Shown here piece after piece: positions 4,690-30,970 of a DNA stretch of 64,000 bases. How positions within the stretch are numbered: the stretch's first letter is position 1; each line of letters starts with the position of its first letter. Under the pieces are notes generated by a model. That model saw only the letters and a list, made by a program, of their open reading frames with translations. It had not been told where the DNA came from and searched no databases. Made by a program: the position numbers and the translations under genes. Source of the DNA: Muscardinus avellanarius (lineage: Eukaryota > Chordata > Mammalia > Rodentia > Gliridae); NCBI GenBank assembly GCA_963383645.1, contig OY726578.1, forward strand, positions 23,976,388 to 24,040,387, read 5' to 3'.

Positions 4690-4953
4690 GGGGTACAAGA
4701 GACTGAACCTAGGGTTGCTCACCCTCAAGCTGCAGCCCTGGCCCTATTTATTTATTGCAGTATTGGGGATGGAACCCAGGGGCATTCAACCTCTGAGCTA
4801 CACCCCCAGCCCTATTTTTTATTCTTTATTTTGAAACAGGGTCTCACTGGGTTGCAAAGGCCCTCACTAAGTAGCTGAGGCTGTCCGCGAACCGTGATCC
4901 TCCTGTCTCAGCCTCCCAAATTCTGGGATTACAAGCGTGCCCACCACGCCTGG
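4690..4953 (-). mobile_element. Minus-strand ID half and dimeric SINE
   Basis: ID-like fragment 4690-4740 and full dimer 4757-4953 ending accacgcctggt. 4954-5180 is unique intron sequence. Confidence 0.88.
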
Positions 4954-24952: not shown

Positions 24953-25320
24953 ATTATTATTTTGCAGTACTGGGGATGGAGCCCAGGGTGATTCTACCTC
25001 CGAGCTACACCCTCAGCCCTATTTTTCATTCTTTATTTTGAAACGGGGTCTCACTGAGCTGCAAAGGGCCTCACTAAGAAGCTGAGGCTGGCTGCAAACC
25101 TGAAATCCTCCTGTCTCAGCCTCCCAAATGCTGGGATTATAAGCATGCGCCACCACACCAGCTCCCAGCCTTATTTTTATTTTTATTTTTTTGTATTTTG
25201 AAACGAGGTATGGCTGAGTGGCCGAGGGTCTCCCTAAAGTGCTGAGGCTGGCCTCGAAGCTGCCTCCCTGTCTCAGCCTCCCAAGTCCTGGGGCTTATGG
25301 GCGTGCCTCACCATGCCCGC
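24584..25320. mobile_element. SINE cluster
   Basis: + B1 half 24584-24670; minus ID halves 24721-24780 and 24865-24915; minus dimer 24963-25165; minus B1 25185-25320. Confidence 0.82.
24915..24963 (+). repeat. (TTA)n microsatellite
   Basis: About 15 tta triplets with one aat interruption, between an ID fragment and a minus-strand SINE (gcagtactggggatgg). Confidence 0.95.
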
Positions 25321-26195
25321 TTCTGGATCATCTCTAGCCGTGGCCTGCTGCTAATGACTGTATTCCGTTTAGTTTCTATCCGCCCGCTCCAGCCCGTTCT
25401 CCTTGGGGACGTACAGAACAAATAAAAGCCTCGTATAAATGACCGCCTTCGGGAGCATAAGTGAATGGCCCCACGGCCCCCAGCTCATTTCCGTTGTTTT
25501 GCTGGATAAGTGGCCCTAGTGCCTTCTTTCTTGTCAATGTTCTCAGCTCGCTGAGCCAGGAGCGCGTGCGTGAGCCCTCGCCTAACCCCAGGCCCCGTGG
25601 GGGGGGCGCTCCCGACAGCCAGGGCAAGGCGGGGCGGGCACCTCCCTTGGTCTGGGGGTCACACTTTGCATGAGGCAGTAAGACTGTGTCTAGCCGGGCA
25701 CGGGGAGCTGTGATGACAAGCGTGCGCCACCACGCCCAGCTGGTACTTTTTCTTTTTAAAGGGTCTCTCCAGCTTGCCTGCAATCCTCCTGTCTCAGCCT
25801 CCCAAGTACAAGGATCACAGGCCTGGGCTACCACACCCTGATCCACCTGGGATTTCACATGCCCGGTGATAACACGAGCTGGTGTGCGGTTTGCTAACCC
25901 AAATATTTATAGATAAACCGGTGACAGGTTGGGACCAGATGTGAGCTCAGGCTGGTCAGTGTGCTGTCTTTCAGAGTCTCAGACACCAGCCTTCCTCAAC
26001 ATGACCCACCTGCAGGTCCCTGCCGTTATCACTAGGAGAGGTGGTGGGGAGACAAGATTCATGTCCAGCCAGTATCGCTCCTGAAAAAAGGTAACTCAGA
26101 GATAAGAATCTCACACACTAAGGGCGATATATTTACAGTTTCCCATTGAAGAATTACACCCTAACACCTTTTCCTCGATTAAAAATTATTTAGTG
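25321..26195. other. Mostly unique intergenic block
   Basis: Contains only fragments of SINEs at about 25694-25740 and 25765-25845. The remainder is single-copy with no recognised feature. Confidence 0.6.
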
Positions 26196-26286
26196 TGAAG
26201 CTGGACGTGGTGAACCACACCTGTAATCCCAGGATTCTGGAAGCTGGAACAAGAGGATTAAAATTATATAAAGCACCAATAAAAAA

Positions 26287-26477
26287 ATGTTTTTTTGGTG
26301 GTACTGGGGATGGAACCCAGGGGCCTTCTACCTCTGGGCTACACTCCCAGACCTATTTTATATTTTATTTGGAAACAGGGTCTCATAAGCCAGTGCGGCT
26401 GGCTTCGAACCTGTGCCATCCTCCTGTCTCCGCCTCCCAAGCGTGGGGATTACAGGCGTGCGCCACCACTGCCCGGC
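26287..26477 (-). mobile_element. SINE insertion with 11-bp target duplication inside an older + strand SINE
   Basis: Minus copy of the cataagccagtgcggctggc type flanked by ccaataaaaaa (26276-26286 and 26478-26488). The host + copy spans about 26196-26645. Confidence 0.85.
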
Positions 26478-26647
26478 CCAATAAAAAATAAATAAATAAA
26501 AAAAAGAGGATTAAAATTTGAGGCCAGTCTAAGCAACATAGGGAGACTCTGTTTCAAAATACTAAAAAAAAAAAAATAAATAAACGGTCGGGGATTATAT
26601 AGCTCAGTGATAGAATGTCCCTGGTTCCAATCCCCAGTTCCACAAAA

Positions 26648-26694
<47 letters not shown>

Positions 26695-26699
26695 ACAAA

Positions 26700-26757
26700 T
26701 AGGGTTGGGGCTGTAGCACAGTGGTAGAATGCCCTTGGGTTCAATTCCCAGCACCCC
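26700..26757 (+). mobile_element. ID half
   Basis: agggttggggctgtagcaca ... ccagcacccc; box-A-like tagcacagtgg and box-B-like gggttcaattcc are visible. Confidence 0.8.
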
Positions 26758-26856
26758 AAAAGTAAAATAAAATTTTTTTCTCCTTTTTTTTTTTTGCAGT
26801 ACTAAGGATTGAACCCATGGCATTCTACCTATGAGCTACACCCCCAGCCCTATTTT

Positions 26857-26870
26857 TTATTCTTTATTTT
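26857..26870. repeat. Left target-site duplication of the composite element
   Basis: ttattctttatttt, identical to 29646-29659. In unoccupied SINE copies this linker appears once (for example ttattctttattttgaaac at 5620-5640), so the two copies here arose on insertion. Confidence 0.85.
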
Positions 26871-27268
26871 ATTTTATTTTATTTTTTTACTATTTTTTAA
26901 ATTTATTTTTATTGGTGCATTGTAATCATACATCACATTGGAATACAAGACTTGAGAGGATATACAAGCACACATCATCCAATTAGCCCTCATCCACTCC
27001 CCATCCCATTCCCTCCCCCTCCCTCGATCCCATGCTTGTTTGGTGATTAACTTTGATACATATGTTTATGTACCTCCTGCGTTTTAAAGAGGCTCCATCC
27101 TCCCCTATTCCATACCCTCTGATTGGTCACCTTAGTTGCTTCACTATAGGGCCCTTTCTATAGCTCGACCACTTCCTGTTGCCCCTTTCCTCCTAGTTAT
27201 TGCTGATTAGGGGAAGCATCTGGTTTTAATTTTCTGCGATATTTCTCTGTGCATGCCGCGTTGCAAAT
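26871..27268 (-). mobile_element. L1-like 3' UTR and poly-A tail of the composite element
   Basis: On the minus strand: aaaaccagatgcttcccc..., then a purine tract (gagggagggggagggaatgg), then ggctaattggatgatgtgtg and gtatgattacaatgcaccaa before taaaaataaa and an interrupted poly-A. A G-rich polypurine tract and an end rich in tac/tgca motifs are typical of rodent L1 3' UTRs, including those I associate with squirrels. Assignment to L1 is from memory. Confidence 0.6.
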
Positions 27269-28918
27269 ACCGATCCCACTCTTGACGGCCCCAGTTGTGG
27301 CCTGGCTACCCGGTGGACTGATCCAGACCTCGCTGGCTCAAGCAGTAGCCTTGCCTCACGGAAGGCCCTGGTTCTGGCTTCGCTGGCCCCGACACTGGCC
27401 TAACCCTTCAGCTGGCTCCGATCCCGGCCTCAGAGGCCCCAGCACCGGCCTTCCTCACGGCAGGCTCCGATGTTAGCCGATGGCCCTGGCATCGACCTAA
27501 CCCCTCGGCAGGCTCCGATCCAGGCCTCGGAGGCCTCAGTAGCAGCCTTGCCTCATGGAAGGCTCCGATGCTGGCCAGTGGCCCCAGCACCGACCTAACC
27601 CCTCAGCAGGCTCCGATCCCGGCCTTGCTGGCCCCAGCACCGGCCTACCCCCTCGGCAGGTTCCGATCCCGGCCTCGGAGGCCTCAATAATGGCCTTGCC
27701 TCACGGAAGGATCCAATGCCGGCCGTTGGCCCCAGCACCGGCCTAACCCCTCGGCAGGTTCCGATCCCAGCCTCGGAGGCCCCAGCACCGGCCTTGCCTC
27801 ATGGCAGGTTCCAATCCTGGCCACGCTGGCCCTGGCACCGGCCTGACTCCTCGGCAGGCTCCAATCCTGGCCTCGTTGGCCCCGGCACCGGCCTAACCCC
27901 TCGGCAGGCTCCAATCCCGGCCTCGGAGGCCCCAGCACCGGCCTTGCCTCGCGGCAGGCTCCGATCCCGGCTTCACTGGCCCCAGCACTGGCCTAACCCC
28001 TCGGCAGGCTCCAATCCCGGCCTCAGAGGCCTCAATAATAGACTTGCCTCACGGAAGGCTCCAATGCCGGCTGTTGGCCCCAACACCGGCCTAACCCCTC
28101 GGCAGGCTTCAATCCCGGCCTCGGAGGCCCCAGCACCGGCCTTGCCTCATGGCAGGCTCCGATCCCGGCCTCGCTGACCCCAGCACCGGCCTCACCCCTC
28201 AGCAGGCTCTGATCCCAGCCTCGGAGGCCCCAGCATCGGCCTTGCCTTGCAGCAGGCTCCGATCCCGGCCTCGTTGGCCCCAACACCGGCCTAACCCTTC
28301 GGCAGGCTCCGATCCCAGCCTCGGAGGCCTCAATAACGGCCTTGCCTCACGGAAGGCTCCGATGCCGGCCGTTGGCCCCAGCACCGGCCTAACCCCTCGG
28401 CAGGCTCCAATCCTGGCCTCAGAGGCCCCAGCACCAGCCTTGCCTCACGGCAGGCTCTGATCCCAGCCTCGCTGGCCCCGGCACCAGCCTAACCCCTCGG
28501 CAGACTCCGATCCCGGCCTCAGAGGCCTCAATAGTGGCTTTGCCTCACGGAAGGCTCCGGTGCCGGCCAGTGGCCCCAGCACCGGCCTAACCCCTCAGCA
28601 GGCTCTGATTCCGGCCTCGGAGGCTCCAGTACTGGCCTTGCCTCGTGGCAGGCTCCGATCCCGGCCGCGCTGGCCCCAGCACCGGCCTAACCGCTCAGCA
28701 GGCTCTGATCCTGGCCTCGGAGGCCTCAATAGCGGCCTTGCCTCATGGAAGGCTCCGATGCCAGCCGTTGGCCCCGGCACTGGCCTAACCCCTCGGCAGG
28801 CTCCGATCCTGGCCTCGGAGGCCCCAGCACCGGCCTTGCCTCACGGCAGGCTCCAATCCCAGCTTTGCTGTGTCTGTCGCCGGCCTCACCCCTTGGCAGG
28901 CTCTAATCCGAGCACCCT
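27269..28918 (-). repeat. 50-bp GC-rich VNTR inside the composite element
   Basis: About 33 tandem units of ~50 bp. On the + strand two alternating types run ggcaggctccgatcccggcc + tcggaggccccagcaccggc + cttgcctcac and the same with ...tcgctggccccagcaccggc + ctaacccctc. A variant with cctcaataacggcc recurs (about 27533, 27684, 28028, 28329, 28527, 28726), many at intervals near multiples of 50 (about 150, 300, 200, 200), showing a four-unit ~200-bp higher-order period in places. Confidence 0.9.
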
Positions 28919-29480
28919 CTTTGCCCAACTATTTGTCCCACGTTCTCGAGGGTGCGTGGTGGTAGCATTCTGCCTCTGGGGTCATTACTTCAAAGGTTCC
29001 AGGTGTAATGTATCAGATCTCTGCCTCCCCTGAGTACTGGCCACTGCCATTGCCACTGCCTCCACCATTTCAAATCTTTCCCAAGCTCTTTTTCCACTCT
29101 GAATGTTGTCCAGTCTTCCTAAGCATGCGCGATGGTAGCATTCGACCTTTGGTGTAATTTCTCCAAAAGAAAAAAAAATAAGGTTGGTGGGCTCCGATTT
29201 CTGCTTCTCCTGAATACAATTCTCCACCGCCAACGTGGAGACCACTTTCAGCACGGCCTTTCTCCTTGGTCTCTGCTAAAGTCTCTCTCCTGGCAGGTGA
29301 TGTCCAAGATTCTTAACAATGTAGAGAAGAAGCAGTCCTCCTTAGCAGGGAATTTTACAATAATTCCAGTTCATTTGGATAAGTTTTGTCTGCATCTCCA
29401 GTATTCTGGCATCCGCCACCTCCTTGACCCCTCTCCGATATTTTCCTTTTTTCTTTTTCTTTTTCTTTTTCTTTCTTACA
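28919..29480 (-). other. Unique middle module of the composite element
   Basis: Not recognised. It contains a diverged direct duplication about 170 bp apart (ggtggtagcattctgcctct near 28960; gatggtagcattcgaccttt near 29130). The minus strand has an 89-codon open frame at 28985-29254 with no family I know. An A/G-rich AAAGA run separates it from the 5' monomers. Confidence 0.6.
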
Positions 29481-29645
29481 GAGTCCTTCCGGGTAAAGAG
29501 GGGTTCGCCTAGGGGTGCCCCGCCAGCGCCTGCCCACCCGCCCAGGGTCGGGGGCCCAGGGGCCCGGACCACGGGATCCTTCCGGGTGGAGAGGGGGTTC
29601 GCCTAGGGGCGCCCCGCCAGCACCTGCCCACCCGCCCAGGGCCCC
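29481..29645 (-). repeat. 93-bp CpG-rich 5' monomers of the composite element
   Basis: ccttccgggt...gaggggttcgcctagggg...gccccgccagc recurs with a 93-bp period (29485 and 29578), giving 1.7 units. It has several GC boxes on the minus strand (gggcggg). The position at the 5' end of the element is what is seen for promoter monomers of some L1 families and for SVA 5' modules; a promoter role is inferred. Confidence 0.75.
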
Positions 29646-29659
29646 TTATTCTTTATTTT
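29646..29659. repeat. Right target-site duplication of the composite element
   Basis: ttattctttatttt, followed by tgaaacagggcctcac, where the interrupted SINE resumes. Confidence 0.85.
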
Positions 29660-30416
29660 TGAAACAGGGCCTCACTATGAAGCTGAGGCTGACCTCAAAC
29701 CTGCAATCCTCCTGTGTTAGCCTCCCAACTACTGGGATTACAAGCATGTACACCACTATACCCAGCTCAAAATAAAACTTTAAATGTAAATTAAGCCCAG
29801 CATGGTGGCACATGCCTATAATCCCAGTACTTGGGAGGCGGAGACAGGAGGATCACAGGTTTGAAGCCAGCCTCAGCAACTTAGTGAGGCCTTCAGCTAC
29901 TCAGTGAGACCCTGTCTAAATAAATATATAAATGAGTCATGATTCATGGCCAGCCTCAGCTACTTAGTGAGGCCCTCCATGACTTAGTGAGAGCCTGTTT
30001 CAAAATAAAGAATAATAATTTTAAAAAAGGGCTGAGAATGTAGCTTGGAGGTCGAATGTTCCTGGGTTCAGTACCCAGTACTGGGGTTCTACCTCCAGAC
30101 TGCACTACCAGGCTAAAAAATATTTTATTTAGAAACAGGGTCTCACTAAGTAGCTGAGGCTGGCTTCAAGCCTGTGTGATCCTCCTGTCTTAGCCTCCCA
30201 AAGTACTGGGATTACAAGCCTGGACCACCATGCCCAGCTGAAACAATGTAATTTTAAAAGAAAATAAGTTGCTAGGCACAGTGGTACAGGCCTATAATTC
30301 CAGTACTTGTGAGGCTGAGACAGGAGAATTGCAGGTTCCAAGGTAAGTATCAGAAACCTCCTGAGGCCCTCTGCAACTGTTTCTAAAGTTAGTAAGTAAG
30401 TAATTAAGTAAGTAAG

Positions 30417-30447
<31 letters not shown>

Positions 30448-30970
30448 AATAGGGCTGAGAATGTAGCTCAGAGTTAGAACCTTCAGGGTTCAATAACTAG
30501 TACTAAAAAGAAAAGTAATTTAAAAGAAAATTCAAGCTGGGGTGGTGGTGGTGCACGCTTGTAATCCCAGTACTTGGGAGGCTGAGACAGAAAGATCATA
30601 GGTTCAAGGTCAACCTCAGCTACTTAGTGAGGCCCTCCACAACCTAGTGAGACTCTGTTTCAAAATAAAGAATAAAAATAGAGAGCCGGGCAAGATGGCG
30701 TATGCTTGTAATCCCTGCACTTGGGAGGCTGAGACAGGAGGATCGCGCAGGTTCGAAGCCAGCCTCAGCTACTTAGTGAGGCTCTCAGCAACTTAGTGAG
30801 ACCCTGTTTCCAAATAAAATATAAAAAAGGTCTAGGAGTGTAGCCCAGAAGCAGAAAGCTCCTAGGTTCCATCCCTAGTACCATTAAAACAAAAGAATCA
30901 AAAATAGGGCTGGGGGTGTAGCTTGGAGGTCAAATGCTCCTGGGTTCCATCCCCAGACCTGCAAAAAAAA

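Follow-up and report, generated by a model that had tools for sequence, protein, structure and literature searches.

A probable non-autonomous, L1-driven VNTR composite retrotransposon family of SVA-like plan in a rodent genome

A 2,775-bp block on the minus strand (26871..29645) of the 64,000-nucleotide stretch of DNA analysed here (hereafter, the window) is very probably one copy of a large, non-autonomous composite retrotransposon family mobilised by L1 proteins. On its sequence, we read the element as an L1-driven VNTR composite that resembles SVA in plan but is built from different parts, and for which a repeat-database entry may exist.

Boundaries and modules of the window copy

The block is bounded by an exact 14-bp repeat, TTATTCTTTATTTT, at 26857..26870 (the element's 3′ end) and 29646..29659 (its 5′ end), as the earlier note on this DNA had described, and near-full-length relatives were found by genome search elsewhere, including copies on C7, C1 and C12. 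Alignment of the joined flanks places the ID-like half of an interrupted SINE at 26790..26856 and its B1-like half at 29660..29770, both on the plus strand; we take this dimeric SINE to belong to the type called B1-dID or MEN in squirrels, and on this SINE type rests the reading of the host as a squirrel. Removal of the element, with one copy of the repeat kept, restores the SINE, in agreement with the proposal that the insertion lies in the linker of an older SINE. Specifically, many other SINEs of this type in the window, for example those at 4743-4947 and 24954-25164, align to the rebuilt sequence without a break at the join, and their linkers contain no insert. Because the joined flanks align straight through to other SINEs, we conclude that the element entered a pre-existing SINE as a single unit. 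Dimeric SINEs are very dense in the window, with dozens of alignments to the rebuilt SINE within 64 kb.

The order of modules on the minus strand is the one claimed before: GC-rich monomers, a unique module, a 50-bp VNTR, an L1-like 3′ end with a purine tract, and poly-A. The order itself stands, but a purine hexamer tract between the monomers and the unique module had been left out. The 5′ monomers (29484..29645) amount to about 1.7 units of ~91 bp and contain CCGGAAG twice, which is presumably an ETS-like motif. They had been called CpG-rich; they are indeed GC-rich (0.77), but their CpG observed/expected ratio of 0.54 is close to the window average of 0.50. The hexamer tract, (GAAAAA)n with a TRF period of 6, forms the joint (29441..29483) to the unique, tether-like module, which spans 536 bp (28905..29440) and has one weak internal duplication. 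The VNTR (27286..28904) consists of about 30 units of 48-50 bp belonging to types A, B, C and D. A short linker (27240..27285) connects it to the L1-derived sequence, the L1 match starting only at about position 47 of the 3′ module. The L1-type 3′ end (26890..27239) includes a remnant of the last ORF2 codons, a 3′ UTR with a purine tract at about 26995-27031, and AATAAA signals, and is followed by the A-rich tail (26871..26889). All of these modules lie on the minus strand.

On the sense strand of the window copy, AATAAA is confined to the 3′ end; a single ATTAAA lies further upstream, at element position 2416. Of the 19 other copies scored, 15 lack AATAAA in the stretch from the unique module to the 3′ end, and the remaining four (L013, L014, L015 and L020) have it once there. 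Seven frames of the window element, including the unique module, match no Pfam family at the curated cut-off, the best match being Ribosomal_L7Ae at E 0.059, below the cut-off. Rfam returned no family match at 26000-30500, a protein search with the 192-aa VNTR frame returned none at E 0.01 among 7,991 scored candidates, and pattern scans of viral contigs gave no match. Furthermore, alignment of the element to the B1-SINE-rich window revealed no B1/Alu-like region, returning only A-rich stretches and one 36-bp match at E 3e-4.

The VNTR varies in length and is ordered. Across 21 copies it measures 1,197 to 4,017 bp (the value for L015 includes a gap of about 450 bp within the array), with units mostly of 50 and 48 bp and a GC content of 0.69; in the window copy, TRF reports periods of 50, 198 and 298. 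Sorted with four templates, the units run largely in the order A-C-D-B, which equals the TRF period of 198 bp, with AB pairs inserted, and 62 of 743 units match none of the templates. In 16 of the 21 copies, the first five units include ACDB; in nine, the array ends in CDCA or in CDCA plus one further unit. The length of the array may change by whole units and by 198-bp higher-order units. In its order, the array resembles the structured VNTR of SVA and LAVA, as far as the accessible part of PMC4432496 describes it.

Copies, junctions and target duplications across the genome

The genome searched comprises 2.497 Gb in 104 contigs. A search with the whole element gave 14,028 first-look candidates, of which 40 relatives were scored, and 20 long loci were fetched from these for a check of module order. 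The complete order of monomers, unique module, VNTR and 3′ module is present in 19 of the 20; the exception, L026, is without the 3′ module, and its VNTR continues into other DNA. The number of monomers ranges from about 1.3 to 7.8 (in L014, the strongest monomer period is 182, followed by 90 and 92). The monomer/unique junction is recognisable in every long locus, and two tandem purine hexamers are present at it in 18. L016 and L022 have only part of the 3′ module, and in L020 a SINE lies within it. No frame of ORF1 or ORF2 size was found in the 20 long loci; the longest sense frame inside these copies is 202 aa, and sense frames of 154-202 aa occur in five of them (L017, L018, L020, L021 and L028).

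Loci were also picked by single modules. The 3′-module search gave 1,753 candidates, 40 of them scored; in all of the first 20 loci after the window's own, for each of which 300 upstream bases were fetched, the VNTR directly joins the 3′ module, and three (L029, L032 and L037) break off by truncation within the VNTR. The unique-module search gave 4,059 candidates and 40 scored matches, of which the 39 other than the window's own are 94-95% identical, and the first four loci after the window's own all have the full module order.

Two side observations concern individual copies. In L014, a second, partial unique-VNTR stretch (L014:917-2769), in which a 3′ module was not detected, lies just upstream of the complete copy. 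The SINE within the 3′ module of L020 (L020:2960-3230) has a counterpart at the same spot and in the same orientation in L069 (L069:2340-2580), and the two SINEs are 89% alike, reflecting either a hot L1 target that was hit twice or a SINE-carrying subfamily.

Genome-wide, the VNTR/3′ junction, represented by a 28-base pattern with up to 3 mismatches, occurs 7,215 times (3,608 + 3,607) and the unique/VNTR junction 3,230 times (1,611 + 1,619); reversed-pattern controls for both gave 0 matches. The 3′ junction is 2.2 times as frequent, in keeping with 5′ truncation, with the proviso that the two patterns may differ in conservation. From C1 to C3:124 Mb, exact matches to the junctions form 11 pairs, each on one strand and in the expected order, 0.5-2.0 kb apart.

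The test for target-site duplications covered 19 copies, namely the window copy and the long loci other than L026, which lacks the 3′ module, and L028, whose 5′ flank is cut. The longest word shared near both ends reaches at least 11 bp in 15 of the 19 and at least 8 bp in 17. In mispaired-flank controls, the corresponding counts are 6 of 342, one reaching 21 bp, and 66 of 342 (19%). The duplicated words vary from locus to locus and are mostly 11-18 bp long; no convincing duplication was seen in L011 (5 bp) or L016 (7 bp), and L019 and L024 have 8 bp exact only. Three of the four loci picked by the unique module (L067-L070) were tested, L069 being left out as its 5′ flank is cut: the duplication is 14 bp in L068 and 17 bp in L070, and L067 has an 11-bp match that is doubtful, lying 49 bases from the first monomer match. 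Many duplications begin with A after T or C (CTTT/AAAAATTGTCC, TTTT/AAGAATC, TGTT/AAGAATATG), as expected of the L1 endonuclease, for which the accessible part of PMC13174262 gives the motif TT/AAAA. L016 has a target of the same type as the window copy: its 5′ flank (about 930-965, sense) is an A-rich dimeric-SINE linker, TTTCAAAATAAAGAATAA. A clear duplication was sought at this site, and none was found.

The earlier note had proposed looking for several loci that share the junctions and differ in their target duplications, and such loci are present among the 20 long ones and the further picks. They also bear on whether unrelated repeats could have come together in the block once, by chance, or whether the block could stem from the segmental duplication of a single locus. 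An A/T-rich duplication could in principle be a matter of chance, which is all that speaks for such an origin; against it, thousands of places carry the same junctions, and the fetched loci differ in their flanks and duplications. The target duplications and junction counts together rule this origin out, leaving it a vanishing probability, and the earlier assertion that the block is not a chance mosaic agrees with the module order and junctions shared by copies genome-wide. We regard as equally negligible the chance that a dispersed 50-bp VNTR satellite spread as DNA and carried the flanking modules along: the VNTR is the largest part of the element and variable in length, as a satellite would be, but the fixed 5′ and 3′ modules, the A-rich tails, the target duplications and the truncations inside the VNTR all argue against it.

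The copies display the hallmarks of a non-LTR retrotransposon mobilised by L1: target duplications of variable length, poly-A and 5′ truncation. At the level of such sequence hallmarks, the shared order, the duplications, the A-rich tails, the truncations in the VNTR and the L1-homologous 3′ end support the earlier description of a non-autonomous, L1-driven element. In the mechanism we propose, the GC-rich monomers would act as promoter, and the RNA would run through the tether, the VNTR and the L1-type 3′ UTR to the element's own AATAAA signals. L1 ORF2p would then nick a TT/AAAA-like target and copy the RNA in trans by target-primed reverse transcription.

The L1 connection

Downstream of the copy in L028 lies an L1 in which Pfam identifies endonuclease and reverse transcriptase. 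Over 190 bp, this L1 is 73% identical to the 3′ module, with a further match in the last ORF2 codons. The L1-like part of the 3′ module was aligned to nine L1 3′ ends, that of L028 and eight others (L059-L066) chosen by a joined query, with identities of 58.7-72.1% (eight at 66-72%, the ninth at 59%). The joined-query donor search returned 40 rows, comprising 31 of L1 type at 81-84% and nine family members that match the 3′ module only. No L1 donor close to the 3′ module was found among the nine aligned L1s (at most 72%). Judged by these alignments, the 3′ tail comes from an L1, of a lineage well separated from the L1s sampled.

The divergence of at least 28% from the nine aligned L1 3′ ends indicates that the tail was taken from L1 long ago, and the median difference of 2.4% outside CpG among the 3′ modules compared indicates later amplification from few sources. 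Outside CpG, 39 copies of the 3′ module diverge from the module consensus by 1.34% on average, and 21 copies of the unique module by 2.62%, both values being biased low because the copies were picked by similarity (for the 3′ module, 20 of the 39 are the most window-like). Very roughly, at mammalian rates, the family would be 3-12 million years old.

An open ORF2 frame of 1271-1278 aa is present in 60 of 75 scored L1 rows, one of them flagged for a stop, from 65,323 candidates, so a source of the mobilising machinery exists. So many open frames point to recent L1 activity. If the host is a ground squirrel, they contrast with the L1 quiescence of the thirteen-lined ground squirrel (Platt and Ray 2012, as cited in the accessible parts of PMC5857283 and PMC3501640).

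The L028-type L1 is common in its own right: its 3′ end has 39 other listed matches, the best of 2,889 candidates, at 94-96% identity. Among the 3′ ends of eight young open-ORF2 L1s (L049-L056), identity is about 98%, and their 3′ UTR does not resemble that of the element. This 3′ UTR departs from the older type shortly after its start, as though it had been exchanged for another in the young L1 lineage. One of these young L1s has, in its 5′ region (L057:2311-2795), a GC-rich array with periods of 22, 31, 40 and 62 bp, unlike the VNTR of the element.

Rodent L1 carries tandem 5′ monomers in variable number, followed by a tether. The element could accordingly represent an internally deleted L1 lineage, with its monomers and unique module being an L1 5′ UTR and tether, splicing or deletion having removed its ORFs, and the VNTR having grown at the scar; it would still be moved by L1 proteins but would be an L1 derivative and not a composite of foreign modules. 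We hold this origin to be unlikely, at a level that still deserves weight. Variable monomers, a non-repeated stretch and an L1 3′ end, with its purine tract in the 3′ UTR, reproduce the rodent L1 layout, the 3′ module retains the last ORF2 codons, and a young L1 of this genome also has a GC-rich array in its 5′ UTR. On the other side, the 5′ region of L028's L1 has no similarity to the element modules at E 1e-5, and the 5′ regions of the young L1s L057 and L058 have none to the monomers, unique module or VNTR (best E 0.079), so that the monomer and tether sequence is absent from the three L1 5′ regions examined. The lack of ORF1- or ORF2-sized frames in the 20 long loci also speaks against it: of an L1 ORF1/ORF2 body, these copies show only the last ORF2 codons. 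A search for a full-length L1 containing all the modules, which the earlier note had named as a refuting case, covered the older L1 of L028, the L057 and L058 5′ regions and the 3′ ends L049-L056 and L059-L066, and found none. If the 5′ modules do come from an L1 lineage outside this sample, "convergent" weakens to "L1-derived".

HAL1 and other ORF-deleted L1 derivatives likewise have an L1-type 3′ end and are probably mobilised by L1 proteins. The element differs from them in having no ORF1-sized frame and in carrying a VNTR in its middle.

Relation to the VNTR composites of primates

As described in the accessible parts of PMC4432496 and PMC13174262, the SVA, LAVA, PVA and FVA elements are non-autonomous and have a 5′ domain, a central GC-rich VNTR of ~50-bp units in non-random order, a retroelement-derived 3′ end, poly-A and target duplications. 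The composite described here is like them in all of these respects, with a central, ordered, GC-rich VNTR and a 3′ domain of other origin followed by poly-A. Its parts are different. Specifically, its 5′ domain combines GC-rich monomers of ~91 bp with a unique module of unrelated sequence, and no B1/Alu-like region was found in it; it has (GAAAAA)n after the monomers, whereas the SVA group, by its description, has a 5′ CT hexamer repeat; and its 3′ end derives from an L1 of this genome, whereas that of the SVA group derives from HERV-K or from Alu/L1ME pieces. Because the shared 5′ CT-hexamer/Alu-like region is absent, we do not file the element with the SVA group.

In the accessible parts of the respective papers, VNTR composites are called specific to hominoid primates (PMC4432496) and SVA is called hominid-specific (PMC13174262), and the human SVA copy number is given as about 2,700 (PMC4982230) or 6,000 (PMC13174262). 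The literature searched, consisting of titles and the beginnings of abstracts and with most subscription journals outside its scope, yielded no VNTR composite from a non-primate, squirrels included. We think it somewhat more probable than the contrary that this rodent came by its VNTR composite independently of the apes, through the assembly of an L1 tail with a newly formed ordered VNTR and a 5′ domain of monomers, and that the lineage has persisted beside L1 for long and multiplied to some 7,000 junction-bearing copies.

What the VNTR does in VNTR composites is still under study. Activity of the element is testable because its host holds many L1s with open ORF2. If the independent origin is true, an array placed between a promoter and a retroelement tail would be a repeatable solution and not an accident of apes, and a second VNTR composite, differing in its parts and numbering thousands of copies, would serve as a natural replicate of the design. 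The features common to both cases, namely GC-rich ~50-bp units, an ordered array and variable copy number, would become candidate requirements of that design, whereas those in which the two differ, such as the Alu-like domain, would not.
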